From a virus, in IMG/VR virus record IMGVR_UViG_3300032462_000029, positions 1-36,821 of that record: DNA of 36,821 bases, one strand, 5' to 3'. Of the stretch, positions 23,943 to 36,821 are shown piece after piece. The notes under the pieces were generated by a model. The model made no database searches and had not been told where the DNA came from. It was given only the letters and a program-made list of their open reading frames with translations. The position numbers and the translations under genes were made by a program. The stretch's first letter is position 1, and each line of letters opens with the position of its first letter.

Positions 23943-23963
23943 GCTCTTGTTGCCTGCGTCAGT

Positions 23964-24767
23964 TCAACAGTTACATCTATAGTAGTGCAGACAGTTCCGC
24001 GCTGCACGCTTGTCTGCTTCTTCGACTAACTCTGATACGATCAGACTCAGGATTTCGTTTATCTCGATGTAGCCCTGCATTTCAGGCCTATTTCCGACCA
24101 GAAACTGCTGGAGGTCTTCGATCGAAGCCGGACAGTCTAGTTTGTTTAGCGTATGAGGTGGGCGAGCTGCTGTGATCTGTTTTTTGATAGCGATGATTTC
24201 GTGACCGAAAAGTGTCAGTATTTCATTAGCTGAGACTTTGATGATGGTCTCTGGAGGCAATGCGAAGAGCTCTTCGATCGAGGCGGGCATTACAGCTGCC
24301 TCAGCTGCCTCAGATGGCTCTACTGGCTCTACAGCTGCATGCTCATCTGCCTCAGCTTCTGCATGCTCCGCTACAGCTTCATTAAGCAAGCTGTCGTACG
24401 CGCTCATTTCAGGTGTTTCATTTTTAGTCGCCGCTTGAGCTATAAAACTATCTAATGCGCGTTGCTGCTCATGAGTGAAATCTTCGAATCGAATTTCATT
24501 TTTTCTATTCATGAATGTTCCATTTTTAGCCATCGCTTGATCTATAAAACTATCTAATGCGCGTTGCTGCTCATCAGTGAAATCTTGTGTTCGAATTATA
24601 TTTTTTCTATTCATGACTGTTTCCTCAGCTGTCTCTACAGCTGCCTCAGCTGCCTCAGCTGGCTCTACTGGCTCTACTGGCTCTACAGCTGTATGCTCCG
24701 CTGCATCAGCTACGTTTATAGTTCCGACTAGTGGGAATTCTGCGATTTTCTTGTTTTTTTTAGTCAT
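23964..24767 (-). CDS. Acidic protein built from internal duplications (267 aa)
   Basis: I do not recognise the family. The layout is: a short basic start; an acidic linker EPVEPVEPAEAAEAA (about 29-43); two tandem 34-residue repeats (MNRKNIIRTQDFTDEQQRA and MNRKNEIRFEDFTHEQQRA, about 52-120); a second acidic linker AVEPVEPSEAAEAAV (about 145-159); and a C-terminal half made of two related segments, PASIEEL ... SANEILTLF and PASIEDL ... EINEILSLI. It ends with a Cys-rich tail (NCLHYYRCNC). GGAGG gives strong translation. It could be a multivalent binding or anti-host protein; no function is assigned. Confidence 0.7.
   Translation of the reverse strand: MTKKNKKIAEFPLVGTINVADAAEHTAVEPVEPVEPAEAAEAAVETAEETVMNRKNIIRTQDFTDEQQRALDSFIDQAMAKNGTFMNRKNEIRFEDFTHEQQRALDSFIAQAATKNETPEMSAYDSLLNEAVAEHAEAEADEHAAVEPVEPSEAAEAAVMPASIEELFALPPETIIKVSANEILTLFGHEIIAIKKQITAARPPHTLNKLDCPASIEDLQQFLVGNRPEMQGYIEINEILSLIVSELVEEADKRAARNCLHYYRCNC
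24422..24622 (-). repeat. Two about 102-bp tandem repeats coding the 34-aa units
   Basis: The units are about 24422-24520 and 24524-24622. Both include CTATAAAACTATCTAATGCG and a following GTTGCTGCTCAT block, with only a few differences between the units. The high DNA identity points to a recent duplication. Confidence 0.75.
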
Positions 24768-24952
24768 AAAATATGCCTCCAGGCTGATGTTTCAACGACG
24801 ATATATACAATTTTACGCGATCTCATACTTTATAATCTTAGACAAATTGAATATAGCACTATGCTAATAAATCACACATATGCTATGATGATATTACTCA
24901 AACTTCGTCTCACACACGATCAATACAAACACACACAAAAACGGAAACTCAG
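24768..24952. promoter_or_regulatory. Divergent intergenic region
   Basis: This AT-rich gap lies between the leftward 267-residue gene and the rightward 111-residue gene. It has a direct repeat TATGCTA (around 24859 and 24881) next to a TATGAT -10-like box on the plus strand. No good -35 box is visible. Divergent promoters and an operator are expected here. Confidence 0.4.
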
Positions 24953-25288
24953 ATGTTAGAAGATATTTCACAATATCATGGACTAGTTTGTTTTGAAGCA
25001 AACGGCACTTTTTATTGTTGCGAAGAAACAGAAACTGACCAATGGTTCGTTGGCAAACGCACTGATATCGATGAGGAATTAAATTTCTACACTAGTATTT
25101 TTTGTAAAAGTAGCAAACCTGACAATCTCTATAAAAAAATTATCGATCGTGATCGCGCTATTTTCAATCGTGATTGCGCTGTAGCTTGCGAATTACATGA
25201 AAAGCGTTGGATGTTGGATGAGTCTATCGGCTTAGCTAAATTTCTTGTCGAGCAGCAGCTGCTGCCCAACCGCGACGAAAATCAATAA
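24953..25288 (+). CDS. Hypothetical accessory protein (111 aa)
   Basis: An acidic small protein, unrecognised. It is aromatic and Cys-containing near the start (GLVCFEANGTFYCCEETE), with a middle DRDRAIFNRDCAVACELHEKR and an amphipathic end. The last codons (EQQLLPN) are written with the palindrome GCAGCAGCTGCTGC that recurs twice downstream. Its orientation opposes the surrounding early genes, as often in moron-type accessory genes. The nearby start region lacks a strong ribosome site. Confidence 0.6.
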   Translation: MLEDISQYHGLVCFEANGTFYCCEETETDQWFVGKRTDIDEELNFYTSIFCKSSKPDNLYKKIIDRDRAIFNRDCAVACELHEKRWMLDESIGLAKFLVEQQLLPNRDENQ

Positions 25289-25356
25289 ATTTCGTTAATA
25301 TTACGAAGACATTTAGGCAGCAGCTGCTGCCCAAATTTTACTGCCGCGCAGGCAGC
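25286..25356. repeat. 71-bp direct repeat, copy A (before the orphan cassette)
   Basis: Matches 26117-26187 at about 67 of 71 positions. It contains a TTCGT/ACGAA stem, the palindrome GGCAGCAGCTGCTGCC and a CTGCC/GGCAG hairpin. It begins exactly at the stop codon of the 111-residue gene. Confidence 0.85.
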
Positions 25357-25373
25357 ATCGGCTTTCAGCCGCA

Positions 25374-25404
25374 TTACTCACACTCACACTCACACTCACA
25401 CTCA
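25374..25404. repeat. Hexanucleotide microsatellite in the leader of the 215-aa gene
   Basis: About five units of ACTCAC/CACACT end 15 bases before the ATG at 25419. Slippage here would change promoter or leader spacing rather than the reading frame. Confidence 0.8.
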
Positions 25405-25418
25405 ATCTTCGGAAATTT

Positions 25419-26066
25419 ATGAAAACGATCTCATTTAAAATTAACAAAATCAATCGCGTATGGATAGACGCAACGATTGGCGATAGCTGCCCCTGCAAAA
25501 TCAAAAAATGTCAAAAAACCGCAGATTTGATTGCTGGCGAAGATTTTATGCTTTTAGTTGAAGATGTGTCTATTCGATCAAAATATGGCACTGATTTGCG
25601 TTACGAAGTCATTTCAACAGCATCAAAAGAAAAATGTTTTATCGACGCGTTGTATAACGAAGATTTAGTTGATCGCTGCAAGTGCCTGGGGGGCATTTGG
25701 GATGAAGAGGCACAAGTTTGGGCATTTGACGGCATCGTAAAAGATCGGGTCGAGGAACTAGAGGCGATTTATTGCTCTGAGATGGTGTCAGTAGAAATAA
25801 CTGCTCGAATAGAAGTTTTCGAATACAACGCGAATATAAAATTTCTTGGTTATCCTCTCTGCTACGCAACGGGACGAGATTCAGGCGCAAAATTATGCAG
25901 GGGAATTAGTTTAATAGAAGGCAAAATTTCAAGCGGCGGCAGTCACAAAAATTGGCTAACTAAAATAAGCGAGAATTCTAAATTTCGTTTAAAAATTTCT
26001 AAACTTTTGTTAGATAATGGGTCAGATATACCCTACTTTGATGTTAAAATTTTAGAAGAGTTCTAA
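25419..26066 (+). CDS. Hypothetical cassette protein (215 aa)
   Basis: Unnamed, but with recognisable features. A Cys-rich segment SCPCKIKKC lies near residue 25. A motif CKCLGGIWDEEAQVWAF (about residues 88-104) resembles the 'LGG-x-W-(x)n-W-x-F' pattern of small modules in some nucleic-acid enzymes. A C-terminal block YATGRDSGAKL ... SSGGSHKNWLTKI (about 148-185) I associate with orphan proteins of phages and plasmids. The gene is flanked by 71-bp direct repeats and preceded by a microsatellite, so it looks like a movable cassette. Function unknown. GGAAATTT gives a modest ribosome site. Confidence 0.65.
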   Translation: MKTISFKINKINRVWIDATIGDSCPCKIKKCQKTADLIAGEDFMLLVEDVSIRSKYGTDLRYEVISTASKEKCFIDALYNEDLVDRCKCLGGIWDEEAQVWAFDGIVKDRVEELEAIYCSEMVSVEITARIEVFEYNANIKFLGYPLCYATGRDSGAKLCRGISLIEGKISSGGSHKNWLTKISENSKFRLKISKLLLDNGSDIPYFDVKILEEF

Positions 26067-26116
26067 ACACTACTAGCTATTTACTGCCGCACAGGCAGCT
26101 TAGAAGAGTCTTTCAT

Positions 26117-26187
26117 TAAATTTCGTTAGTATTACGAAGACATTTGGGCAGCAGCTGCTGCCCAAATTTTACTGCCGCGCAGACAAC
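26117..26187. repeat. 71-bp direct repeat, copy B (after the orphan cassette)
   Basis: Partner of copy A with the same internal hairpins; here the palindrome extends to GGGCAGCAGCTGCTGCCC. An extra CTGCC-GCACA-GGCAG hairpin lies just upstream at 26084-26097. The two copies bracket the 215-residue gene with a period of 831 bp. Confidence 0.85.
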
Positions 26188-26213
26188 TACTAAATTAGTA
26201 TTTGCACTCTGAG

Positions 26214-26588
26214 CTACAACTCAGTAATGAAAATATGCGTCTCGTCAGTAGTTCCCCATTTTTTCTGAGCAGTCAAAAAAACGACTTGTGCATCGTCTTC
26301 GTACGCAACATTAGTAAGAGCGTCCAGAAGATTCTTTGAAACATTGTCAAGATCAGCCCTAGTCAATTTCCATTCGCCAATTTTCTTTTTCGTTGGGCTT
26401 TTGTAAAACGCGATAATCTCAATCTTGACAGCCCCTTTTATCGTCGACGCTATCTGAGGTTTTATCCAAGCCGCCAGCATCTTTCTGTTTTTTAGCTTTG
26501 GGTCGAAGAAGATCTTGCCGTTGCAGCGCGGGCGGCTCCAGGTCTGAGGGCGGCCTGGGAATATCAGGTGATAGTGTGCTAGTGTCAT
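26214..26588 (-). CDS. rusA: RusA-family Holliday-junction resolvase
   Basis: It cuts recombination junctions before packaging. The family core TRADLDNVSKNLLDAL and NVAYEDDAQV is present. Asp79, Asp81 and Asp98/99 correspond to the metal-binding aspartates of E. coli RusA, and Lys85 to its conserved Lys. At 124 residues the size is normal. The ATG overlaps the stop of a 36-codon upstream gene (ATGA), so translation is coupled. It is the last gene of the leftward replication operon. Confidence 0.92.
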   Translation of the reverse strand: MTLAHYHLIFPGRPQTWSRPRCNGKIFFDPKLKNRKMLAAWIKPQIASTIKGAVKIEIIAFYKSPTKKKIGEWKLTRADLDNVSKNLLDALTNVAYEDDAQVVFLTAQKKWGTTDETHIFITEL

Positions 26589-26695
26589 CTGATTGCTCGA
26601 ATTTGCTTCTCTAATCTATTCAGCCTCCATAGCCAGTATTTCATCTTTATTACACGCATGATGATACTCAGTAGAGAGCGCCTTGGTTTTTGCAT
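26585..26695 (-). CDS. Very small basic peptide upstream of rusA (36 aa)
   Basis: MQKPRRSLLSII continues as a K/R/W-rich helix ending EKQIRAIR; its TGA overlaps the rusA ATG. AAGAG stands before the ATG. The peptide is cationic and amphipathic, so it may be a coupling leader for rusA or a small DNA- or membrane-binding peptide. Confidence 0.5.
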   Translation of the reverse strand: MQKPRRSLLSIIMRVIKMKYWLWRLNRLEKQIRAIR

Positions 26696-26728
26696 ACTAA
26701 CTCTTTTAATCTCAAATTTTTAATTTAA

Positions 26729-26734
26729 ATTATA
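26729..26734 (-). promoter_or_regulatory. Possible -10 element upstream of the 36-aa/rusA genes
   Basis: A perfect TATAAT is read on the minus strand 34 bases before the 36-codon gene, within a very AT-rich stretch. No matching -35 box is present at 16-18 bases, so this is tentative. Confidence 0.28.
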
Positions 26735-26763
26735 TTCTGATTGCGTCTGATAATTACGCGTTG

Positions 26764-26865
26764 TTATGTTTTTTGTTTTGCTAAATAGACTAGAAGCATC
26801 GGTGCTGCACACGAGCACAAAAACAACAGTATTTTAAACGCTGTGAGCATCATATCTGGGTTCAT
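26764..26865 (-). CDS. Small single-span membrane peptide (33 aa)
   Basis: MNPDMMLTAFKILLFLCSC is followed by AAPMLLVYLAKQKT: one hydrophobic span of about 20 residues (8-28) with a basic end. Its ATG overlaps the stop of the preceding small gene (ATGA), a typical coupling. With its neighbour it could form a holin-like or other membrane pair, but no lysozyme is near. Its size put it below usual gene-calling limits. Confidence 0.55.
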   Translation of the reverse strand: MNPDMMLTAFKILLFLCSCAAPMLLVYLAKQKT

Positions 26866-26954
26866 TTTAGGCCTCTGCTTAGTCTGTTAGTCAGCCACGG
26901 TATGCACACGAGCAACGCGCTCAGCAGGACTAATTTGTCTGTTTGAATATCCAT
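26862..26954 (-). CDS. Small membrane peptide (30 aa)
   Basis: The frame is open from an ATG at 27053 (63 codons), but the ATG at 26954 (MDIQTDKLVLLSALL) has GGAAAG upstream and starts directly before a membrane span; the upstream extension is hydrophilic and lacks a ribosome site. The end, TNRLSRGLK, is positive. Coupled to the next 33-residue peptide. Confidence 0.5.
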   Translation of the reverse strand: MDIQTDKLVLLSALLVCIPWLTNRLSRGLK

Positions 26955-27008
26955 AGCTTTCCAAATTGTATGGTAGCTCTCACGACTCTGTTTTGTCTGA
27001 GTAAACGC

Positions 27009-27047
27009 TGCATCGTATAACGTTAATCCCTGCAACGTATAACGGTA
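27009..27047. repeat. Pair of 17-bp direct repeats (iteron-like), 22 bp apart
   Basis: TGCATCGTATAACGTTA (27009-27025) and TGCAACGTATAACGGTA (27031-27047) differ at two positions and are spaced by two helical turns. They lie between ssb and the small membrane genes. They could be a protein-binding operator or part of an origin. Confidence 0.55.
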
Positions 27048-27070
27048 AAACATTCGTTTAAAACAGGGCT

Positions 27071-27532
27071 CTAAAAAGGAAGGTTATCCTCGTTGAAGTC
27101 GTCAGCTGCAGTTCCTGGGCGAAAGCCGCCGGGCACTGAAGCGGGAGCTGGAGAGCCTCTCTGTGAATAGCTAGGAGTAGAAGAGGGGCGCTCTTCACTT
27201 CCTTGATAGCGATCACTCTTACCACCAGGAGCAAAGCGAATCTGAGTCGCCGTAATCTCCAAAGAGACCTGGGTGCGACCTTCGCGATCTTGATAGGTAT
27301 CGGGTTTGCGTCGGAATTCACCATGCACAATTAGCATAGTACCCTTTTTAATATAGGGCATCATGCGATCAAACTGATCACCCCAGCAGCTAACTTTCCA
27401 CCAGATCGTCTCTTCTCGCTCGCCTGCTTTGATAGTATCTGCAATGCGAAACGAGACGACTTTGCGCCCTGAAGGCGTCATACGCTCTTCTGGATCATTA
27501 CCAACGAAACCGATAATTTCTACGAGATTCAT
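27071..27532 (-). CDS. ssb: Single-stranded DNA-binding protein
   Basis: An OB-fold SSB of 153 residues. It begins MNLVEIIGFVGNDPE and has the conserved KVVSFRIADT, WWKVSCWGDQFD and GTMLIVHGEF segments. A Gly/Ser/Pro-rich linker leads to the classic acidic tip DDFNEDNLPF, which recruits partner enzymes. Its ATG overlaps the stop of the 137-residue gene (ATGA). It protects ssDNA during replication and RecT-type annealing and presumably works with recT/YqaJ. Confidence 0.97.
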   Translation of the reverse strand: MNLVEIIGFVGNDPEERMTPSGRKVVSFRIADTIKAGEREETIWWKVSCWGDQFDRMMPYIKKGTMLIVHGEFRRKPDTYQDREGRTQVSLEITATQIRFAPGGKSDRYQGSEERPSSTPSYSQRGSPAPASVPGGFRPGTAADDFNEDNLPF

Positions 27533-27942
27533 TCATTACACCCAATCTTTTCTTTATTTCTGAAATAGTCTCCGTTTTCTTGCCAAATGTCTTCTCGACA
27601 AATTCGGTTTGTCGCAGGGGAGTCGTCTTTTCGTAATCTATTACGCTCAACAGTGATGAGCGTTTTGTTGTTAAGCAACGGATGGGTGGTAGTCTCTAGA
27701 TATTTGATGCACTCGTCTAATTTGTCGACAGAGCAACCGGCTCGCAATGCCACAGCTTTTCTTCCTGCAATGCATCTGCTGCCTTCAAACGCAAAACTGC
27801 TAATGGCTGAATAGACAGAGAGTTGATATACATCGAGGCCAAGATAGAAAACGATATTGGGAGTTTGCGTGTTCCATTTATGGTTTGGCAATTTGTCTGC
27901 AATTTCTAGTTCTTCTTCATCGTAATAATTTTGATATGTCAT
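27529..27942 (-). CDS. Winged-helix replication-type protein, truncated paralogue (137 aa)
   Basis: Residues 1-134 differ from the start of the 343-residue protein at only about ten positions, then end at once with CNE and a stop. The block VYQLSVYSAISS ... GRKAVALRAGCSVDKLDECIKYLE is a winged-helix DNA-binding domain as in phage replication initiators. It lacks the linker and C-terminal part of the longer copy. It may bind the same sites without recruiting partners, acting as a competitor or regulator. Translation is coupled to ssb. Confidence 0.8.
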   Translation of the reverse strand: MTYQNYYDEEELEIADKLPNHKWNTQTPNIVFYLGLDVYQLSVYSAISSFAFEGSRCIAGRKAVALRAGCSVDKLDECIKYLETTTHPLLNNKTLITVERNRLRKDDSPATNRICREDIWQENGDYFRNKEKIGCNE

Positions 27943-27999
27943 GTTATTTGGTCTTTCTCGTTAAGAGGTGTTGCTGAATTGTGTCAATACGCTTAAACA

Positions 28000-28353
28000 T
28001 CACAAGCGGGAGCTTTGGATGGGTAGTGGTTTTACGAAAGCATAGGATATTGTCCTATCATGTGCGTTTTTATTAAGATTGGCGCGCATGAGAATAGGAT
28101 CAAAATCTTGTATGGCACTCCTTCTCTTCTTCCCATTGCTTAGGTAGATAAGCAGCTCTCTTATTTCATCAATAGTGAAATATGGGAAAAAAGAGTGCAT
28201 TTCTTTTGTAGATTGACGTACCCAAGTCCTTCCCTCATGAAAATTCTCATTACATTTCTCGCTGATTTGACAATGGGCCTGAAAATGTTGAATGAGCAGG
28301 CTTGCGTTAACACCATATTTTTTTGCTAAATCGATGTCGAACGAGTGACGCAT
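28000..28353 (-). CDS. Winged-helix replication-type protein (117 aa)
   Basis: The frame opens at 28371, but the ATG at 28353 (MRHSFDIDLAKKYGVN) follows AGGAA and matches how such proteins normally begin. Features are KYGVNASLLIQHF, the diagnostic GRTWVRQSTKEM, then SFFPYFTIDEIRELLIYL and NLNKNAHDRTISYAF. This series is common in small phage replication proteins with a winged-helix fold. The usual C-terminal replisome-binding part is missing, so it may be a stand-alone origin-binding or regulatory version. It lies between the two copies of the duplicated gene. Confidence 0.75.
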   Translation of the reverse strand: MRHSFDIDLAKKYGVNASLLIQHFQAHCQISEKCNENFHEGRTWVRQSTKEMHSFFPYFTIDEIRELLIYLSNGKKRRSAIQDFDPILMRANLNKNAHDRTISYAFVKPLPIQSSRL

Positions 28354-28369
28354 TGAGTTCCTTGTTTGC

Positions 28370-28406
28370 ATGTGATTAAATTATTTATTTATTATGTGAT
28401 TAAATT
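28370..28406. repeat. 13-bp direct repeat upstream of the 117-aa winged-helix gene
   Basis: ATGTGATTAAATT occurs at 28370-28382 and 28394-28406, separated by AT-rich TATTTATTT sequence. The second copy overlaps the stop of the 343-residue gene. Possible operator or duplication scar. Confidence 0.6.
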
Positions 28407-29423
28407 GAGTTTTCTCAAACAATTGTTTATTTGCTCCAGCGAACCTGCATCTGAGAAGCGGATGAACTGAGGTTTTGTGTCTGTCGGTAGTTTAAACTCG
28501 AGACAAGTTTCATGAACGTTGAACGACGATGTAGCAACGTGGCGGCATCGAGAAGCGTTCATAGTGCTGCGGACCTTTTGGCAGTAATCGTATAGCTCTA
28601 GCACCCGATCTCTAGACCCTTTTGCCTGATCCGATTGCTGCTGCTTAATATCGACGTTGGGGCACGCTTTACGCTTGAGTAAGGCCGTGACTACGGCAAT
28701 GGGATTATCGACGTCTCTGGTGGCTTTGTATTGCGAATACGCAAGTGCTGCATTCTCAAAGTCCTGAGCAACATGAGTAGGTGAGTATTCGGAGCATAGC
28801 TTTTCGAGTTCAGCTGGCTTGAGAGGGAGAGTAGCAAACTCTTTGAGTTCAGAGAGAACAACGAACGAAACAGGGGAGGCGCTAGCCTCTTCTTGTTTGT
28901 TGTTCTTCTTGTCTTGTTTATGTTCTTCTTCTTCGGGCCGCTGCTGGCTACCCCCCCCGCTGCTGGCGGATACACCCCCCCGCTGCTGGTGGATACCCAC
29001 CCCCCGCTGCTGGCGGATATCCCCAATCTTTTCTTTATTTCTGAAATAGTCTCCGTTTTCTTGCCAAATGTCTTCTCGACAAATTCGATTTGGCGCCTGG
29101 GAGTCGTCTTTTCGTAATCTATTACGCTCAACCGTTATGAGCGTTTTGTTGTTAAGCAGGGGATGAGTAGTAGTCTCTAGATATTTGATGCACTCGTCTA
29201 ATTTGTCGACAGAGCAACCAGCTCGCAATGCCACAGCTTTTCTTCCGGCAATGCAGCTGCTGCCTTCGAACGCATAACTGCTGATAGCTGAATAGACAGA
29301 GAGTCGATATATATCGAGGCCGAGATTGAAAACGATATTGGGAATTTGCGTGTGCCATTTGTGGTTTGGCAATTTGTCTGCAATTTCTAGTTCTTCTTCA
29401 TCGTAATATTTTTGATATGTCAT
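28392..29423 (-). CDS. Phage replication initiator-like protein (343 aa)
   Basis: The N-terminal winged-helix domain (about residues 25-105) is as in the truncated paralogue. Residues about 135-162 are a repeat-encoded linker (QQRG and SASSGGG units), followed by an acidic/basic stretch (PEEEEHKQDKKNNKQEE). The C-terminal domain from about 185 has LPLKPAELEKLCSEYSP and DVDNPIAVVTALLKRK, typical of the helical C-terminal part of phage replication proteins that recruit helicase or primase. The linker is encoded by poly-C tracts that can slip. It is the likely replication initiator of the early operon. Its leader carries a 158-bp insertion with a large hairpin. Confidence 0.78.
   Translation of the reverse strand: MTYQKYYDEEELEIADKLPNHKWHTQIPNIVFNLGLDIYRLSVYSAISSYAFEGSSCIAGRKAVALRAGCSVDKLDECIKYLETTTHPLLNNKTLITVERNRLRKDDSQAPNRICREDIWQENGDYFRNKEKIGDIRQQRGVGIHQQRGGVSASSGGGSQQRPEEEEHKQDKKNNKQEEASASPVSFVVLSELKEFATLPLKPAELEKLCSEYSPTHVAQDFENAALAYSQYKATRDVDNPIAVVTALLKRKACPNVDIKQQQSDQAKGSRDRVLELYDYCQKVRSTMNASRCRHVATSSFNVHETCLEFKLPTDTKPQFIRFSDAGSLEQINNCLRKLNLIT
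28938..29025 (-). repeat. Degenerate minisatellite with 8-, 7- and 6-base C tracts inside the initiator gene
   Basis: About four units of the form GCTGCTGGCGGATA-C(n) occupy the linker region. C-runs lie at 28951-28958 (8), 28975-28981 (7) and 29000-29005 (6), with 4 at the end. The units are not all multiples of three, so successive copies are read in different frames (QQR versus ASSG). Confidence 0.85.
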
Positions 29424-29454
29424 TTTAATTGGTCTTTCCTACTAAAAGGTGTTG

Positions 29455-29525
29455 ACCAAAATGAACGATTAATGATAAAAAGGTCTTGTTATGCAGACCT
29501 TTTATTATTAATCATTCATTTTGGT
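29455..29525. repeat. Large near-perfect inverted repeat (about 31-bp arms)
   Basis: The left arm ACCAAAATGAACGATT...AAGGTCT (29455-29486) and right arm AGACCTTTT...TTTTGGT (29495-29525) pair with two mismatches and one bulge around an 8-base loop. The inner part (AAAAAGGTCT / AGACCTTTTATT) would act as a bidirectional terminator. It lies at the left edge of a 158-bp segment absent from the paralogous leader at 27943. Confidence 0.85.
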
Positions 29526-29526
29526 T

Positions 29527-29563
29527 CCCCCAGTTCCCTAAAAAGGTGTGGGGGTTTTTTTTT
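29527..29563 (+). terminator. Plus-strand intrinsic terminator with no plus-strand gene before it
   Basis: CCCCCA pairs with TGGGGG around 16 bases and is followed by nine T on the plus strand. The genes around it are on the minus strand. It lies within the putative insertion. Confidence 0.7.
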
Positions 29564-29645
29564 GATGATAATTGATAACTTAAATTGCTGTGGTACTGAA
29601 TGCATACACTGCGTTGCTGAATTGTGTCAATCGCGTTTGCTGCCT

Positions 29646-30062
29646 CTAAGCTAGCGTGTCATTTTTTTGTGAGTCGTCCTCACTTTTCTCTATTAGCACT
29701 TCTGTTTTTTCTACAAAAGGTGCGTTTGCTTCCTCGTACACAGCCCACTCATATCCTAAAATCTTCCCGTTTAAATTTTTATACGTTATGCGACTGAGGT
29801 ATCCAGCTTCTCGCAAAATCTTCAGGTATGAGTAAACTGAGATAATGCAGAAACCTGTCTCGTTTGAAATAGACTGAGCCACAATATTCCAATCGTCAGG
29901 TTTCTCGAGTATTGAGTATAAAACGGCACGACAGCAAGCCCACCCGGTGACTGTGACTCCGACTGGCGGTGTATGGCGATTAGTGAGTATCTTTGAAATG
30001 AAAACACACTCAGAGCTGTTTAATATCGGAGCTCTAAAGATTTTTTGCTTATTATTAATCAT
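29646..30062 (-). CDS. Winged-helix DNA-binding protein (138 aa)
   Basis: Residues about 50-112 follow the helix-turn-helix pattern common in phage replication and regulatory proteins: KPDDWNIVAQSIS, a short loop, SVYSYLKILREAGYLSRI and a wing ITYKNLNGKILGYEW, ending AVYEE. The C-terminus is acidic and hydrophilic (EKSEDDSQKND). It stands upstream of the initiator gene in the leftward operon. AGGGAAAG serves as ribosome site, preceded by a run of nine C in the minus-strand leader. It may bind the repeat-rich region directly upstream. Confidence 0.75.
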   Translation of the reverse strand: MINNKQKIFRAPILNSSECVFISKILTNRHTPPVGVTVTGWACCRAVLYSILEKPDDWNIVAQSISNETGFCIISVYSYLKILREAGYLSRITYKNLNGKILGYEWAVYEEANAPFVEKTEVLIEKSEDDSQKNDTLA

Positions 30063-30306
30063 TTTATTTTTACTTTCCCTGTCGGGGGGGGGTTGACTGG
30101 AAACTCTAACAAATGGTACACATTAACCTGTGTGTTATTGTGTGTTATTGTGTGTTATTGTGTGTTTTATTTGTTTTATTTGTTTTGTGTGAGTTGTTTG
30201 TTTTAGTTTTCGTATTTTGTAAAATAGTGTGTGAGTTGTTTATATAAGTTTTTCCGTTTTACTTCGGATTTTAACCCTCGGCTCTTAATTAAGGCCGAGG
30301 GTTTTT
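30063..30306. other. AT-rich non-coding region with 10-bp tandem repeats, origin-like
   Basis: No gene fits here. TGTGTTATTG is repeated three times exactly at 30131-30160, with degenerate copies after it. GTGTGAGTTGTTT occurs at 30187-30199 and 30229-30241. The region is strongly T/G-biased on one strand and AT-rich. It sits beside replication-type genes, so it is the best candidate for the replication origin or a main regulatory region. A plus-strand terminator closes it. Confidence 0.5.
30084..30092. repeat. Nine-base G/C homopolymer in the leader of the 138-aa gene
   Basis: Nine G on the plus strand lie about 22 bases upstream of the start codon. Length changes would alter leader or promoter spacing without shifting the frame. 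Confidence 0.85.
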
Positions 30307-30308
30307 TT
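30274..30308 (+). terminator. Strong plus-strand intrinsic terminator
   Basis: CCCTCGGC and GCCGAGGG pair around an 11-base loop and run into seven T. It overlaps the end of a small minus-strand gene. No plus-strand gene precedes it, so it must end a short untranslated RNA or read-through transcript. A TTGTTT box and a TAAAAT box 16 bases apart around 30198-30225 could start an RNA of about 80 bases. Confidence 0.78.
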
Positions 30309-30450
30309 ATGTCGAATATTTGCGAAACGCTTTGTAGACCAAGACTGCTTGTAACGATCCCGCCACAGCACTAATGCCTGCACTGTGTAACTCAACACCA
30401 ACCAGCAGGTACGCGTCGACAATCAGTTGAAATGCAATCATCGAACCCAT
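30307..30450 (-). CDS. Small membrane protein (47 aa)
   Basis: It begins MGSMIAFQLIVDAYLLVG and ends LVYKAFRKYST: two weakly hydrophobic stretches (about 4-19 and 25-40) and a basic C-terminus. GAGAG lies at good distance upstream. It starts 19 bases after the stop of the 211-residue gene and ends at the plus-strand terminator. Function unknown; a small inner-membrane peptide is likely. Confidence 0.55.
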   Translation of the reverse strand: MGSMIAFQLIVDAYLLVGVELHSAGISAVAGSLQAVLVYKAFRKYST

Positions 30451-30468
30451 TTTGAACTCTCTTTTATT

Positions 30469-31104
30469 TTAGGAGGCATTTTCGGAGGCTGAAGCAATTC
30501 GAGAATTTCTGATATCAGCATTTCGGCGTCGATTAACATCACCCGATTTTCTCTGTCCAGAGTATGCTTGGGAAGGCTTTGGAGAAGGAGCAGGGCACTC
30601 TGGGATTTCCCAAAACATTGGCCCACACGGTACTCTGTATCCTGTAGGTGGCATAAGACAGTCTCCAGACTCGATTGCGTCTCTGCAAACGACTCTAAGT
30701 GCGTTGATAAATCTTTGGCGCAAGAGTCGATCGGGTAGTGGGGCGTAGTGGGGTACATGTAGCAATCTCTCGGGTTCCTGAATTGAAAAATTAGGCAACT
30801 CTACAAATATGTTCCGTTTTTTAGTTTTAGCAACGACTCCGTTGATGATGAGTCCGCATTTAAGTTGTACCGATGCTGTATACACATTTTTTTTATCTCT
30901 ATCGATACCGTTTTCGTAGAGCGCAATGACCTTCATGCCCGTTTCTATGGGCTCGATTGAAGGTTTTTGCACCTCTGGCTGTGCCTGGTCTTGTATCAGT
31001 CCCATAACAAATGCTTTAACTGATCTGCTATTCTTTATTGTAATACACATTTCAAAAAGTGCTTGCTCAGCGTCATTCAGAGCAAACGCGTAGGTTTTAG
31101 CCAT
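30469..31104 (-). CDS. Hypothetical early protein (211 aa)
   Basis: I do not recognise the family. Residues 1-45 (AKTYAFALNDAEQALFEM ... SVKAFVMGLIQ) could be a ribbon-helix-helix-like start. The middle has beta-type segments (TGMKVIALYENGID, GLIINGVVAKTKK). About 120-165 is helical (LPDRLLRQRFINALRVV), and the C-terminus is Arg/Asn/Ser-rich and probably disordered. The ATG overlaps the end of the preceding small frame by 8 bases. It is part of the leftward early operon and may be regulatory. Confidence 0.65.
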   Translation of the reverse strand: MAKTYAFALNDAEQALFEMCITIKNSRSVKAFVMGLIQDQAQPEVQKPSIEPIETGMKVIALYENGIDRDKKNVYTASVQLKCGLIINGVVAKTKKRNIFVELPNFSIQEPERLLHVPHYAPLPDRLLRQRFINALRVVCRDAIESGDCLMPPTGYRVPCGPMFWEIPECPAPSPKPSQAYSGQRKSGDVNRRRNADIRNSRIASASENAS

Positions 31105-31297
31105 CGATTTTATCCTGATTTTTTTTGATTGTTGCTTCGTGTGCTGCGTTAAATCGATGAATGATGTCGTTTATCGAATCAATGCATGTATTGTTTTCGC
31201 GATCGATAAATGCCGAGTTATTCAATTTCTTTCTTTTTGGTTTTTCTTTTTTTTGAACACACTTTGTTAAAATATTGAAGAATGTGATTGAAACCAT
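31097..31297 (-). CDS. Small basic open frame (up to 66 aa), start uncertain
   Basis: The frame opens with ATG at 31297, but that part overlaps the previous gene and lacks a ribosome site. A TTG near 31229 is a possible real start, giving about 43 residues. The segment NNTCIDSINDIIHRFN resembles KKTCADGFNHILQYFN in the previous gene, so the two may be degenerate tandem duplicates. It overlaps the start of the 211-residue gene by 8 bases. Confidence 0.35.
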   Translation of the reverse strand: MVSITFFNILTKCVQKKEKPKRKKLNNSAFIDRENNTCIDSINDIIHRFNAAHEATIKKNQDKIDG

Positions 31298-31490
31298 CAG
31301 CGCATGTCTTTTTTTTGAAAGTCATCTCGTGTTTCATGTTCTCATGAGCGTTTATGATCGCGTTTTCATACTCTTTGCTCTGATTCGCATCGAGTCTAAA
31401 AAAAATAACTTTCAGTTTAGGTTCTCCGTTAATGAGGGGAATTTCTGGGTGTTTTCTCGGTCGACCGCGGGTTTTTTTTTCGATATCCAT
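31218..31490 (-). CDS. AT-hook-like small DNA-binding protein (90 aa)
   Basis: The frame opens at 31508, but the ATG at 31490 has AAGGAA 5 bases upstream and is preferred. The motif KKTRGRPRKHP at residues 5-15 is an AT-hook-type minor-groove binder. A compact helical part follows (FFRLDANQSKEYENAIINAH). The C-terminus is very Lys-rich. As the first gene of the leftward early operon it is a candidate regulator of the divergent promoters at 31491-31560. Confidence 0.65.
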   Translation of the reverse strand: MDIEKKTRGRPRKHPEIPLINGEPKLKVIFFRLDANQSKEYENAIINAHENMKHEMTFKKKTCADGFNHILQYFNKVCSKKRKTKKKEIE

Positions 31491-31518
31491 GTTAGTTCCT
31501 TGATGCAATTGTTTAATA

Positions 31519-31547
31519 ATGCTACAATATTTGATATATTAACGCAA
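31519..31547 (-). promoter_or_regulatory. Probable sigma70-type promoter for the leftward early operon
   Basis: TTGCGT (31547-31542) and TAGCAT (31524-31519) on the minus strand are separated by 17 bases, each matching consensus at 4 of 6. The first gene starts 29 bases after the -10. The region is shared with the rightward recT promoter. Confidence 0.42.
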
Positions 31548-31560
31548 GTGGGAATATAAT

Positions 31561-32382
31561 ATGAATACTCAAAACGAAAACGTGCCAGCAGTGCAGCATC
31601 AACAAATAAAATCTTCGGACAACTTTCTAAGTAGTCTCGAGGCTCTAGTTAAAAGCACTGATATGATCAAAAACCTCTGCAAACAGCTTATGCAGACTCC
31701 CCACTACGCTAAACTCAAAGAAGAAGGCATTTTTGCTATAGTAATGATGGCTAATTCTCTTGGAATTGATGTACAAGCAGCACTCAACGGTCGTCTCGGC
31801 TACGATCGAGGAAAGGTTACAATACCCTCTGAAACAATGAATTTAATGATCCGCCAGGCCGGACATTCGATTGAAAAAGATCCTGTTTCTAACGAAAAAG
31901 TGTGCATTCTCACAGGCAAACGCAAAGACAATGGAGATACGATCAAAGTCAAATACACAATCGAAGAGGCATCTAGAGCGGGTTTAACAGCTAAAGACAA
32001 TTGGAAAAATCATCCCCAAGCCATGTTGTTCGCTCGATGCAGTTCAATGCTAGCTCGACAGCTATTCGCTGACGTTATTGGCGGCTGCTACACACGAGAA
32101 GAAATGGACGACGAAAACTTCATCAACAAAAACGCATCTGTAGTTGATATTGCATCTGTCATTGTAAAAACGTCAGGCATGTTTAGTGACGGGCAGTCAG
32201 ACGAGCTAGAGAGTTTGGTTGCTAATATGCCCGATATTCGCGAGCGCATACTGTCACTGTATGTAGTTACAAAATTCACAGAAATACACGCGACTAATTT
32301 CGAGTTTATCAAAAACTGGGCTACTAAAGAGCTCTCTCGTCGACAAGTTGACTCGCTGAAGACGACTGAGGACGCTGAATAA
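31561..32382 (+). CDS. recT: RecT-family single-strand annealing protein
   Basis: A 273-residue annealase that pairs ssDNA ends produced by the neighbouring exonuclease. Family features are LKEEGIFAIVMMANSLGID, VQAALNGRLGY (about 70-80), PSETMNLMIRQAGHSIEKD and the HPQAMLFARCSSMLARQLF helix ending DVIGGCYTREEM (about 155-180). This order is diagnostic of the RecT group (not Red-beta or Erf). GGGAAT stands before the ATG. The stop overlaps the next ATG (TAATG). With SSB and RusA it forms the recombination module. Confidence 0.95.
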   Translation: MNTQNENVPAVQHQQIKSSDNFLSSLEALVKSTDMIKNLCKQLMQTPHYAKLKEEGIFAIVMMANSLGIDVQAALNGRLGYDRGKVTIPSETMNLMIRQAGHSIEKDPVSNEKVCILTGKRKDNGDTIKVKYTIEEASRAGLTAKDNWKNHPQAMLFARCSSMLARQLFADVIGGCYTREEMDDENFINKNASVVDIASVIVKTSGMFSDGQSDELESLVANMPDIRERILSLYVVTKFTEIHATNFEFIKNWATKELSRRQVDSLKTTEDAE

Positions 32383-33263
32383 TGAAAATAGTTAACTTTG
32401 AGCAAACTTCGGACGAATGGCTAGACTGGCGACGAGGTAAAATGACTGCGAGTCGCATCGCGTGCGCCATGAATAGGTCGCCGTTCGGCACAGCATACTC
32501 ACTATGGTGTGAGATCGTCCTCGGCAAGGTCAAGCCGATGTATATGCCAGCTGTTGATCGAGGAAGGGCACTAGAAGAGCCTGCTCGTTATTGTGCAGAG
32601 CAAATGCTGGGTATGACGTTTACTCCTCTGTGCGTCGAGTCAGACGAGAATCCGAGTTGGGCCGCTTCACTAGACGGCTACAATCCCGAAAACGATGTCG
32701 TTATCGAAATCAAGGCTCCAGGAAAAGAAGTTTTAGCTAAAGCCGAGAAGGGGATTATTCCCGACGAGTATTTTTTGCAAATTCAATGGCAGCTGTTAGT
32801 AACGGGCGCGAAAAAGGCGTGTTATTTTTGCTATTCAGGTCTCTCGGGTATGGCCATCTGGGTAGAGCCGTGCCCGGATACATTCGAAAAAATGAAACGT
32901 ACTGCGATCGAGTTTCAGGGCTATGTCGATAGACTAGAAGAGCCAGACCTCACTGATCAAGATGTGATCGACGATAATTCTGTAGAGTGGCTTGAGTTCG
33001 CTAGACTTAAAATACAGACAGCTGAGGCCCTTAGGCAGGCTCAATTCGACGACGACACAGTAAAAGCTAAGTTGGAACAGATAGCTGGGACTAGAGCTCG
33101 TATTCGTGGTGGCGGCGTTTTGTACACGCAAACTAAACGACCGGGGAACATCAATTACAAATCAGTCGTTGAGAGTTTAGACATTTCTGATGAAGAGCTC
33201 GAAAAGTTCAGGGGATCACCAGTTACAACTACTCGTATAACTATTACTAAATCACGTGCGTAA
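32382..33263 (+). CDS. YqaJ-family phage exonuclease
   Basis: A lambda-exonuclease-like PD-(D/E)xK nuclease that resects dsDNA for RecT. Visible motifs are DEWLDWRRGKMTASRIA (11-27), the catalytic set SLDGYN (Asp98), VVIEIKAPG (Glu109 and Lys111), and FLQIQWQLLVTGAKKACYF (131-149). A helical C-terminal part follows. At 293 residues it is full length. It is translationally coupled to recT and is the last gene of the rightward early operon, ending before a hairpin. Confidence 0.93.
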   Translation: MKIVNFEQTSDEWLDWRRGKMTASRIACAMNRSPFGTAYSLWCEIVLGKVKPMYMPAVDRGRALEEPARYCAEQMLGMTFTPLCVESDENPSWAASLDGYNPENDVVIEIKAPGKEVLAKAEKGIIPDEYFLQIQWQLLVTGAKKACYFCYSGLSGMAIWVEPCPDTFEKMKRTAIEFQGYVDRLEEPDLTDQDVIDDNSVEWLEFARLKIQTAEALRQAQFDDDTVKAKLEQIAGTRARIRGGGVLYTQTKRPGNINYKSVVESLDISDEELEKFRGSPVTTTRITITKSRA

Positions 33264-33269
33264 ATAAAA

Positions 33270-33295
33270 CTTGGGGCAACATCTTGTTGCCCAAG
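33270..33295 (-). terminator. Hairpin terminator between the nuclease and integrase genes
   Basis: CTTGGGCAACA pairs with TGTTGCCCCAAG around three bases and is followed on the minus strand by TTTTATTT, so it mainly ends integrase transcription. It may also stop the converging nuclease transcript. Confidence 0.65.
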
Positions 33296-33308
33296 CGGAT
33301 ATCGGAGA

Positions 33309-33887
33309 CTAGTCCCATTTGAACGTTTTGAAACGAGCGGGATTGATTTTAGTGTAGCCGATAACTCCGTTAAGACTTCTGTGCCCTAAATAGTCTTGTA
33401 TCAATCGAATGTCGCACCCTTGATTCACTAAATGGTAGCCGCATGCATGACGAAGCATGTGAGGAAAAGGCTTAAAATCTAGACCCGCTTTTTTACCGAG
33501 CATCGCCATCAGCTGATTGAATGCGATCCGAGTAAACTGAGTGTTTCGCTGCGACAGGAAAATCTCGTCAGTTTCTAGCGAAGGAAATCTCACGCGCCTC
33601 TCTCTGCGCCAGTCGTTCAACATCTTGAGCTCGTCTAGCTGCATCGGCTGTGTAGTATTAAGCCCCCCTTTAGATCGCACTATATATACAGTGTGATTGT
33701 GCGTGTCTATGTCTGTCCATTTCAAGCGGCATAGCTCTGTGGCTCGGAAGCCATGGCGAAATGCAAGCATAACAACGGCTTTGTTGCGTGATGGATAATC
33801 TGTTTTGTCACATGCTGCTATTAAAGTTTTAACTTCGTCGTGTGTTAAGTGTCGTTTTTTGCTATTTTTCAATTTGTCGTATCTCAA
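33309..33887 (-). CDS. Tyrosine recombinase, FimB/FimE-like (integrase)
   Basis: A catalytic-domain-only recombinase of 192 residues, close to FimB in size and in motifs HGFRATELCRL, PHMLRHACG and RLIQDYLGHR. The active-site set is complete: Arg48, Lys73, His143, Arg146, His169 and Tyr178. No separate core-binding domain is seen. There is no ATG: the frame is closed by TAA five codons before a TTG at 33887, so TTG is the only plausible start. It could integrate the phage or invert a segment. The adjacent repeat-bearing gap may hold its recombination site. Confidence 0.88.
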   Translation of the reverse strand: MRYDKLKNSKKRHLTHDEVKTLIAACDKTDYPSRNKAVVMLAFRHGFRATELCRLKWTDIDTHNHTVYIVRSKGGLNTTQPMQLDELKMLNDWRRERRVRFPSLETDEIFLSQRNTQFTRIAFNQLMAMLGKKAGLDFKPFPHMLRHACGYHLVNQGCDIRLIQDYLGHRSLNGVIGYTKINPARFKTFKWD

Positions 33888-34048
33888 ATTTTTAAGTAGT
33901 TAAATGTCTCTCAGTGTCTGAGATTTATTTGTTAACTATTGCCCCAATATATTAATACAAAATGGATATTTTGTAATGAAGCGTTTTCAGCAACTTTTCA
34001 TTGCAAACGATTGCGCGTTAGGGCTATTTATCGGTTTATAGGTTAACT
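33888..34048. other. Intergenic region next to the integrase, candidate attP
   Basis: It contains the inverted repeat TCTCAG-TGT-CTGAGA (33909-33923), ACAAAAT-GGAT-ATTTTGT (33957-33974) and a direct repeat GTTAACTAT (33931-33939 and 34042-34050). Such short repeats beside an integrase gene fit an attachment site or operators. No core sequence can be identified from this window alone. Confidence 0.4.
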
Positions 34049-34270
34049 ATGATTCCCGTTCCAAAAGACATTTCAGTAGCTACTCGTCTGAACGACTCGT
34101 GCAATTGCTCCTGCTGCCCGGTTTTTCGGAGATTTTCGCCTAAAGCCAAATCGTCCTCTGTAGCGTCGACTAACACGACGCCAATCGTTGATCCGGCAGA
34201 TGTAAAAGTGGCCAAAGCTGCAAAGTGGTTTTTTCAACGAAAATCAACAGCAGCGCCCAACTTACACTGA
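34049..34270 (+). CDS. Small hypothetical protein (73 aa)
   Basis: TAGG precedes the ATG. The protein has a Cys cluster (SCNCSCCPVF, about residues 17-26), then a Ser/Thr/Pro/Ala-rich part and a basic aromatic end (KWFFQRKST). Unrecognised. Either a small regulator or a spurious frame is possible. It lies alone on the plus strand. Confidence 0.4.
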   Translation: MIPVPKDISVATRLNDSCNCSCCPVFRRFSPKAKSSSVASTNTTPIVDPADVKVAKAAKWFFQRKSTAAPNLH

Positions 34271-34318
34271 GCTGCAAAACAATATTTCTATTTGTCTCAA
34301 CGCATATCTTTTTTTTCG

Positions 34319-34347
34319 TTGAAAAAATAACTGCGGCTGTCTATGAC
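34319..34347 (+). promoter_or_regulatory. Probable sigma70-type promoter for the 58-aa gene
   Basis: TTGAAA (34319-34324) and TATGAC (34342-34347) stand 17 bases apart. TATGACAGA is repeated just after, at 34355, possibly an operator. Confidence 0.48.
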
Positions 34348-34376
34348 AGAGCATATGACAGATGAGAGAGGTGTCT

Positions 34377-34553
34377 ATGTCTATTGTTAAGCCAACCTAC
34401 GCCGAGCTGTGGCTCGCTCGCAAACCGAGAAAACGCGCTGACAAAAACCACCCCTGGATGTACACGATTAGGTCAGCCTCATGGTGGAATCTCCCACTAG
34501 AGCAGATCAACTACGAGGGGAAAATAGTAAAAAATCACAACGACGATTTCTAG
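34377..34553 (+). CDS. Small hypothetical protein (58 aa)
   Basis: I use the ATG at 34377 (MSIVKPTYAELWLARKP), which has AGAGG upstream, rather than the ATG at 34362. It is basic and Trp-rich (WMYTIRSASWWNLP). A promoter-like pair lies just upstream. Its stop overlaps the stop of the convergent 52-residue gene by 3 bases. Function unknown. Confidence 0.55.
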   Translation: MSIVKPTYAELWLARKPRKRADKNHPWMYTIRSASWWNLPLEQINYEGKIVKNHNDDF

Positions 34554-34708
34554 ATTTCCTCGTCTGGGCTCAGATCGATTGTTACACCCGTTTGCTGTTT
34601 TATCACAGCTTCACAGGCCTGTTCAACGGGATTGTCATTGCCTATATAGATCGTGCTAACTAAACCCAGGCATAAAGTAAGGGCAGTAATGGCGAGTACA
34701 ATAACCAT
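34550..34708 (-). CDS. Small phage membrane protein (52 aa), last gene of the fibre operon
   Basis: MVIVLAITALTLCLGLVSTI is a membrane anchor or signal, followed by GNDNPVEQACEAVIKQQTG and VTIDLSPDEEI. This 'anchor plus NPVEQ ... xxQTGVxIDLSP' pattern is a recurrent small phage protein placed at the end of structural operons. GAGGAT gives a strong ribosome site. It follows the tail-fibre assembly gene by 34 bases. Its role is unknown in known cases; a virion-exit or lysis-related role can be considered. Confidence 0.72.
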   Translation of the reverse strand: MVIVLAITALTLCLGLVSTIYIGNDNPVEQACEAVIKQQTGVTIDLSPDEEI

Positions 34709-34741
34709 TTTAAATCCTCAAGTTTTAGATTGAATACGCTG

Positions 34742-35179
34742 TCAGTAGGTTGGAGGGGTGGGCCAATCAATTGCATTTGGGAATCCTGCCTGCCCGGGTA
34801 TTTTTCTGAGATGATCTCTATACTCCATCCATTCCATAGAGGCGCATGGAGCGTCTGGCAGCATTGTCCAGTCGCAGTTTTTTAGCAATTCGTTACGTCT
34901 ATGTCTCATTTCAGCAGCCAAAGCTGTATCTATCAGCTCAAGGTCTGCATCGCTACGCATGCGAGTAATCTGCGTTTCTGTAATGTCGTGTTCGTTGATG
35001 ACTACTACACTGCTGGTGACTATGTCCCCTGCCGTAACTACGAGTACATATGGCAACCAGCCTAGGTCTGCTAGTGCTACAGGCGTCATGTTTTTCAATC
35101 CGCTGATGTTTTCCCATGATTCGGGCAGACCCATCGGGCCCTCAACGATGACTTTGTCGATTACTAAAGCGTAGCGCAT
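34742..35179 (-). CDS. Tail fibre assembly chaperone-like protein
   Basis: The C-terminal third reads RHRRNELLKNCDWTMLPDA, then WMEYRDHLRKIPGQAGFP and NAIDWPTPP. The 'RxxRNxLLxxCDWTxLPD ... WxxYRxxLRxIP' signature marks the phage tail assembly chaperone family (T4 gp38 / Tfa-related). It helps fibres fold and trimerise and is normally encoded beside the fibre it serves. GGAGAA stands before the ATG. It overlaps the glycosyltransferase gene end by 16 bases, so the two are co-translated. Confidence 0.88.
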   Translation of the reverse strand: MRYALVIDKVIVEGPMGLPESWENISGLKNMTPVALADLGWLPYVLVVTAGDIVTSSVVVINEHDITETQITRMRSDADLELIDTALAAEMRHRRNELLKNCDWTMLPDAPCASMEWMEYRDHLRKIPGQAGFPNAIDWPTPPTY

Positions 35180-36190: not shown

Positions 36191-36821
36191 TCATAAGCTA
36201 AAAGCTCCGGCGCTGGATGTCAACAGACTGGAATCCGCCGAGTTCCAATTCGTCAGTGCACCCACCTGGACGGGAGATGATCTGTTAGAGGGCAAGAGGA
36301 GAGAATTTCCCCATGCGTAGAATTCTCCGGCTGTTGTGACCGCTAGAGAATTGCTCGAGCCTGCTGCTACAGATTTCCAATTCGTCAGTGCGCCTATTTG
36401 TACGGGAGAAGATTTGTCTGCGGTTGTACCATCGCCCAGCTGCCCAAGGTTATTTTTTCCCCACGACCACAGTGTGCCGTCTGTGCGCACAGCTAAAGCA
36501 TGGTTTAATCCTAAAGATACGTTCGACCAGACAGCAAGAGCACCAACCTGGACGGGCGATGATTGGCTCGCAGTCGATCCCGTGCCCAATATGCCGCTAC
36601 TACCATCACCCCACGTCCACAAAGAGCCCGACACAGTAATTGCAGCTGATGTTCCTGTGCTGCCCGTCGAAACAGACTTCCAGCTCGTTAGTGCGCCTAC
36701 TTGGATGGGGCTGGATTTGCTTACGACTGTACCATCGCCCAGCTGACCCGAACCATTAGACCCCCACGTCCACAACGTTCCGTCTGTTTTTACAGACAGA
36801 TAGTAATTGTTTCCGCCGACT
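36191..36821 (-). CDS. RCC1-repeat tail-fibre-like protein A (C-terminal part)
   Basis: This is the last part of the 725-residue RCC1 protein that begins at 1717; positions above 36651 duplicate the left end. The repeats continue unbroken to the C-terminus, which ends in a short non-repeat tail (SSAGAFSL). An internal ATG at 36775 is not the true start, because the frame is open beyond the window edge. The glycosyltransferase gene follows 22 bases after the stop. No trimerisation or autoproteolysis domain is visible at the C-terminus, which is unusual for a fibre tip. Confidence 0.85.
   Translation of the reverse strand, partial: VGGNNYYLSVKTDGTLWTWGSNGSGQLGDGTVVSKSSPIQVGALTSWKSVSTGSTGTSAAITVSGSLWTWGDGSSGILGTGSTASQSSPVQVGALAVWSNVSLGLNHALAVRTDGTLWSWGKNNLGQLGDGTTADKSSPVQIGALTNWKSVAAGSSNSLAVTTAGEFYAWGNSLLLPSNRSSPVQVGALTNWNSADSSLLTSSAGAFSL
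36652..36821. repeat. Terminal direct repeat, right copy
   Basis: Second copy of bases 1-170, with 169 of 170 positions identical. Removing it leaves a molecule of 36651 bp. Confidence 0.85.

Follow-up and report, generated by a model that had tools for sequence, protein, structure and literature searches.

The locus that surrounds a 215-residue gene in the viral contig studied here is rather likely to be a multi-copy RNA anti-CRISPR of the Racr-like kind, which would titrate the Cas6f and Cas7f proteins of the host, and we regard it as probably an RNA decoy directed against a host CRISPR system rather than a cassette that is swapped in and out. The window is the whole of record IMGVR_UViG_3300032462_000029, a viral contig of 36,821 nt whose termini are repeated (1-170 corresponds to 36652-36821, with 99.4% identity). 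According to our scenario, transcription through a 111-residue gene and the 215-residue gene would produce an RNA that carries two intact Cas6f hairpins, here called R' and R1, and that ends near the palindrome at 26142-26167. Each hairpin would be bound and cleaved by the Cas6f of the host, which would not leave it afterwards, and Cas7f would load onto the RNA that precedes the hairpin; the resulting complexes would be dead and would starve the I-F Cascade of the host. A third repeat, R2, is a decayed copy. Since R1 and R' possess the stem required in RacrIF1, and since the gap between the gene and R1 resembles that of RacrIC1, we infer a Racr-like locus and, with it, transcription, binding by Cas6f, inhibition and a host equipped with a type I-F system.

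Type I-F repeat copies in the window

R1 (26079..26106, + strand) is a complete type I-F CRISPR repeat, ATTTACTGCCGCACAGGCAGCTTAGAAG, which scores 40.3 bits with the Rfam family RF01317 (gathering score 35) and agrees with its consensus at 25 of 28 positions and, by eye, with the repeat of a short array (L031) at 27 of 28, that is, at the level of at least 90% identity expected of a repeat match. It is located in intergenic DNA: the stop codon of the 215-residue gene lies 12 nt upstream of it, and a further 108 nt on its other side separate it from the point where the convergent RusA gene ends. It contains both an intact Cas6f stem (26084-26098) and the 8-nt handle. R' (25336..25363, + strand) is an I-F-like copy that matches the consensus at 20 of 28 positions and has lost the handle, yet keeps all five pairs of the stem CTGCC/GGCAG (25341-25355). 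R2 (26167..26194, + strand) reaches the same score of 20, and its stem is broken by the change of GGCAG to GACAA; thus, the C6-G20 pair is kept in R1 and R' and lost in R2. No other site in the window scores above 17, and among 200 dinucleotide shuffles none exceeded 20 of 28 (the mean number of sites with at least 20 matches was 0.015), while the two stem-intact hairpins compare with an expectation of 0.035.

A covariance model trained on 20 I-F repeats of viral origin assigned 43.2 bits to R1 and 20.4 bits to R' (E-value 0.0044), which makes R' marginally significant according to the model, and left R2 unmatched; in the control, comprising other loci from phages and plasmids (586 kb in total), the same model returned a single weak match of 17.6 bits. 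All stem pairs are kept in the 20 repeats, one of which has compensatory changes in three of them, although this conservation is not independent evidence, as the repeats were gathered with patterns that contain the stem. These data bear on the idea, which we hold to be unlikely, that the locus is a remnant, made up of pieces of an old Racr or of a CRISPR array from a host, combined with terminator palindromes and now devoid of function. The decay of R2 and of the handle of R', as well as the terminator-like appearance of the palindrome, agree with such an origin. However, R1 is nearly perfect, its handle included, R' retains the five stem pairs, and the conservation of all pairs in the viral repeats points in the same direction, weakly because of the way in which they were collected.

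Neither Cas6f (PF09618) nor Cas1 (PF01867), the two cas families searched for, was found in the record, and the control genomes gave positive results. The terminase of this phage has its relatives mostly in phages of Vibrio, Pseudomonas, enterobacteria, Moraxella and Acinetobacter, and gammaproteobacteria are the main home of type I-F systems. A type I-F repeat that likewise ends in GAAG occurs in an array of 84 hairpins on a plasmid of Acinetobacter lwoffii. The terminase relatives and the shared ending may indicate a gammaproteobacterial host, and we regard them as suggestive only. The plasmid in question (NZ_CP046295.1, 221 kb) carries at least 84 type I-F repeats within 5 kb, in a stretch for which the gene table of the collection lists no gene. 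The search for a host by the exact repeat gave no match in genome_contigs, and 118 I-F spacers from the fetched loci had only matches of 12-18 nt to the window, with E-values of 0.003 or worse, which we took as chance.

As regards expression, the 250 bp upstream of R1 contain a promoter-like sequence TTAAAA-18-GATAAT at 25989-26018, and such sites are no commoner in the window than in shuffled sequences. In the first of the two duplicated blocks the palindrome precedes R', so transcription might stop before it.

The duplicated blocks and the palindromic core

The earlier note had described direct repeats of 71 bp around the 215-residue gene, and this observation holds: block A (25282..25354, + strand) and block B (26113..26185, + strand) are each 73 bp long, 95% identical, and separated by 831 bp from start to start (the 71-bp frames given originally, 25286-25356 and 26117-26187, differ at 4 positions by eye). 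The 18-bp palindromic core GCAGCAGCTGCTGCCCAA was likewise correctly reported as present in three copies, the first of which ends the preceding gene; the exact copies are at 25252-25269, 25317-25334 and 26148-26165. An exact 14-mer of the core was found at these three places only, and with up to two mismatches it has 9 matches in the window, 3 of them being the known copies, compared to 0.17 expected in shuffles; the remaining ones are mostly CAG runs inside genes.

Block A consists of an AT-rich hairpin (25291-25307), a GC palindrome (25311-25336, with one mismatched pair) and the I-F-like hairpin, while block B contains a perfect 26-bp palindrome (26142-26167), which is terminator-like and has a weak T tail. 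When folded as RNA, each block is predicted to be more stable than shuffled sequences (z -3.45 and -3.32), in agreement with the stacked hairpins noticed previously. What had been missed is that the complete repeat R1 separates the gene from block B and that the final approximately 20 bp of each block correspond to the hairpin of the type I-F CRISPR repeat, so that, judging from the sequence, the stack is composed of a hairpin rich in AT, a palindrome rich in GC and a mimic of the CRISPR repeat. The reading of the repeats as ordinary terminators, raised as the possible refutation of the cassette idea, accounts for the palindrome but not for the CRISPR repeat that the blocks also carry.

A search for the block beside other genes in related phages had been proposed, and the block was not found with other genes: the block region has no nucleotide match in phages, the junction of the core with the hairpin has none in genome_contigs, and the perfect 18-bp palindrome appears in viral_contigs in four unrelated contexts only. 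None of these four contexts includes I-F hairpins, and we took them as coincidence. The matches of the palindrome pair to mir-4484 and isrG in Rfam were ignored, as they are far under the gathering scores.

The presence of two same-strand I-F-like repeats, R1 and R2, 88 bp apart could be taken for a CRISPR mini-array, in which R1, a spacer and R2 would yield, with the use of the Cas proteins of the host, a guide RNA that targets a rival virus; arrays of this kind are known in phages (PMC11656645). We consider this extremely unlikely. The interval between the repeats has 60 nt instead of 32, and it is filled by the AT hairpin and the perfect palindrome; since the palindrome is found in block A as well, the interval is not a foreign spacer. 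Moreover, because the stem of R2 is broken, Cas6f could not make the 3' end of the guide.

Exchange of the 215-residue gene by recombination between the direct repeats, as the reason for which the repeats exist, appears very unlikely to us, although several observations speak in its favor. The repeats of 73 bp are 95% identical, the relatives of the 215-residue protein are scattered over mobile elements, and the phage encodes RecT and a YqaJ-type exonuclease, which make recombination between the repeats possible. On the other hand, a cassette does not predict a CRISPR repeat within the blocks, and neither an excised nor a swapped form was seen, the only close relative of the contig being one that does not cover the region. 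That relative (L038/L039), a contig of 25.5 kb with 99.97% identity, lacks coverage of 23949-35103 of the window, a stretch that includes the gene. Of the suggestion of a defence-type cassette, the defence direction is retained, via RNA hairpins, whereas recombination as the purpose of the repeats finds no support. In our view, the most likely origin of the duplication is copying of the intergenic RNA module.

We also considered site-specific recombination by the FimB-like invertase of this phage as the reason for the direct repeats and rejected it, since FimB-type invertases invert the DNA between inverted repeats. The gene in question (33309-33887, - strand) encodes a FimB/FimE-like tyrosine DNA invertase (NF007370, 1.3e-50). 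In its vicinity there are tail-fibre assembly genes (34742-35179, phrog_4912) and a pair of 20-bp inverted repeats (34224-34243 and 34313-34332), 90% identical and 69 nt apart; this arrangement makes the region a candidate for a phase-variable tail-fibre switch.

The 215-residue gene and its neighbours

The 215-residue ORF (25419..26066, + strand), which is bracketed by R' and R1, belongs to the family phrog_18108 (3.8e-9) and has relatives in plasmids of Vibrio, Lactobacillus, Leptospira and Streptomyces and in a phage of Dolichospermum; the identity to the protein from a Vibrio parahaemolyticus plasmid amounts to 35% over 96%. Thus, the gene is not the orphan it was initially taken for, although it is one with respect to Pfam and NCBIfam, in which it has no match. 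A single-protein search of viral_contigs revealed no relatives, and the predicted structure was discarded (pLDDT 29). No I-F repeats were found near the relatives at the loci examined, which indicates that this protein family has no fixed link with CRISPR mimicry; the gene may simply occupy an anti-defence spot here.

The 111-residue ORF (24953..25288, + strand) is located upstream of block A and its 3' end holds the first copy of the 18-bp core. It has no family match in Pfam, PHROGs or NCBIfam, and tblastn returned nothing below an E-value of 0.1. The right border of the locus is formed by the convergent gene of a RusA-family resolvase (26214..26588, - strand; PF05866, 1.3e-17), which, like the 111-residue protein, has no relatives in viral_contigs. 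No known Acr or Aca neighbours were detected with the Pfam, PHROGs and NCBIfam libraries.

The window contains repeated sequences elsewhere, too. A 434-bp direct repeat, 92.6% identical, occurs at 27541-27973 and 29022-29454 around replication-initiation-like genes, and a tandem 102-bp duplication (24414-24621) is found within a 267-residue ORF, beside short repeats that code for an acidic, alanine-rich stretch. At 1788-3998 (- strand), near repeated tail-fibre-like DNA, there is a gene of a 736-residue protein with regulator-of-chromosome-condensation (RCC1) repeats.

I-F hairpins in other viral contigs

A scan of viral_contigs for type I-F repeats revealed host-like arrays in five loci (L012, L013, L020, L022 and L029) together with a number of small groups. 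In L010, L014, L015, L021 and L028, two or three hairpins are spaced by 46-48 bp, leaving intervals of 18-20 nt instead of 32, and these loci possibly form a short-interval class of repeat mimics. The spacing in other groups is 60 bp (L017 and L018), 64 bp (L023) or 66 bp (L027). Several groups lie less than 50 nt past a gene on the same strand, and what comes next is often a terminator or another gene; a terminator-like hairpin follows in L014, L023, L024 and L027, and the last hairpin of a group is often devoid of the handle, as in R'.

The clearest parallel to the locus in the window is L119 (IMGVR_UViG_3300044504_000122), a contig of 26,112 bp with four I-F hairpins at 9212, 9948, 9996 and 12038, all on the + strand. 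Each group of hairpins lies between the stop of one gene and the start or the ribosome-binding region of the next one, and a RadC-like gene (phrog_10276) is located, together with a short paralogous gene, between the first and the second group. Both loci have several same-strand I-F hairpins in the gaps of an operon of small genes, a bracketed gene and a gap of 12 nt past a stop codon. However, L119 has neither the 73-bp block nor the GC palindrome, its pairs are spaced by 48 bp, and none of its proteins is detectably similar to those of the window.

The hairpins on both sides of a gene are also compatible with processing of its message: the host Cas6f would cut after 25355 and 26098 and free the mRNA of the 215-residue protein, whose expression would then answer to an active I-F system. 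The intact I-F hairpins that flank the ORF, and the position of the hairpins of L119 between genes and around the RadC-like gene, argue for this interpretation, but the bracketing may just reflect duplication of the module, and R' scores weakly in the covariance model; on balance, we consider it improbable as an explanation of the locus. Cutting of the mRNA by Cas6f is, nonetheless, compatible with the decoy role, and both could act together. A decidedly doubtful conjecture would go further: phages might place Cas6f hairpins between the genes of small-gene operons, with the result that the Cas6f of the host is titrated while it cuts the message into single-gene mRNAs, and that phage gene expression senses an active I-F system; the 215-residue product would then serve in counter-defence, and its expression would differ in hosts armed with CRISPR.

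Taken together, the window, L119 and several viral contigs in which two or three I-F hairpins are spaced by 46-48 bp suggest that multi-copy, operon-dispersed mimics of I-F repeats constitute a class hidden by the solitary-repeat filter. If they are active, such mimics would widen the known range of RNA anti-CRISPRs, flag the uncharacterized genes in their neighbourhood as candidates for counter-defence, and raise the question of whether Cas6f cuts phage mRNAs.

Comparison with known systems

The published search for Racrs (Camara-Wilpert et al. 2023, PMC10651486) retained only solitary repeats, defined by the lack of a second repeat more than 70% similar at a distance of up to 100 bp. Like RacrIF1 and other viral solitary repeat units, the locus described here is an intergenic mimic of an I-F repeat, stem intact, located 3' of a gene in a phage with no Cas6f or Cas1. 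Unlike the solitary units, it has three copies, with R' 743 bp upstream of R1 and R2 60 nt downstream; as R2 is, by eye, identical to R1 at 20 of 28 positions (71%), it falls within the 100-bp limit of the strict definition, and the locus should be regarded as a variant rather than as a plain member of this group. In phage mini-arrays (PMC11656645), as in this locus, repeats of the host type reside on a virus; here, however, a spacer of 32 nt is lacking, the two repeats are separated by 60 nt of palindromic, duplicated sequence, and the second repeat is broken. A further difference from RacrIF1 is that the copies are embedded in duplicated 73-bp blocks flanking a gene. RacrIC1 is located 11 nt past acrIC5, with which it is co-transcribed (PMC10651486), and R1 follows its gene by 12 nt. 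RacrIF1, which requires the C6-G20 stem, serves Cas6f as a substrate for binding and cleavage and nucleates a Cas6f-Cas7f filament on the upstream RNA, thereby starving Cascade (PMC10651486). Variants of it with an altered 8-nt handle still show substantial activity (PMC10651486); the handle, which R' lacks, was dispensable there.
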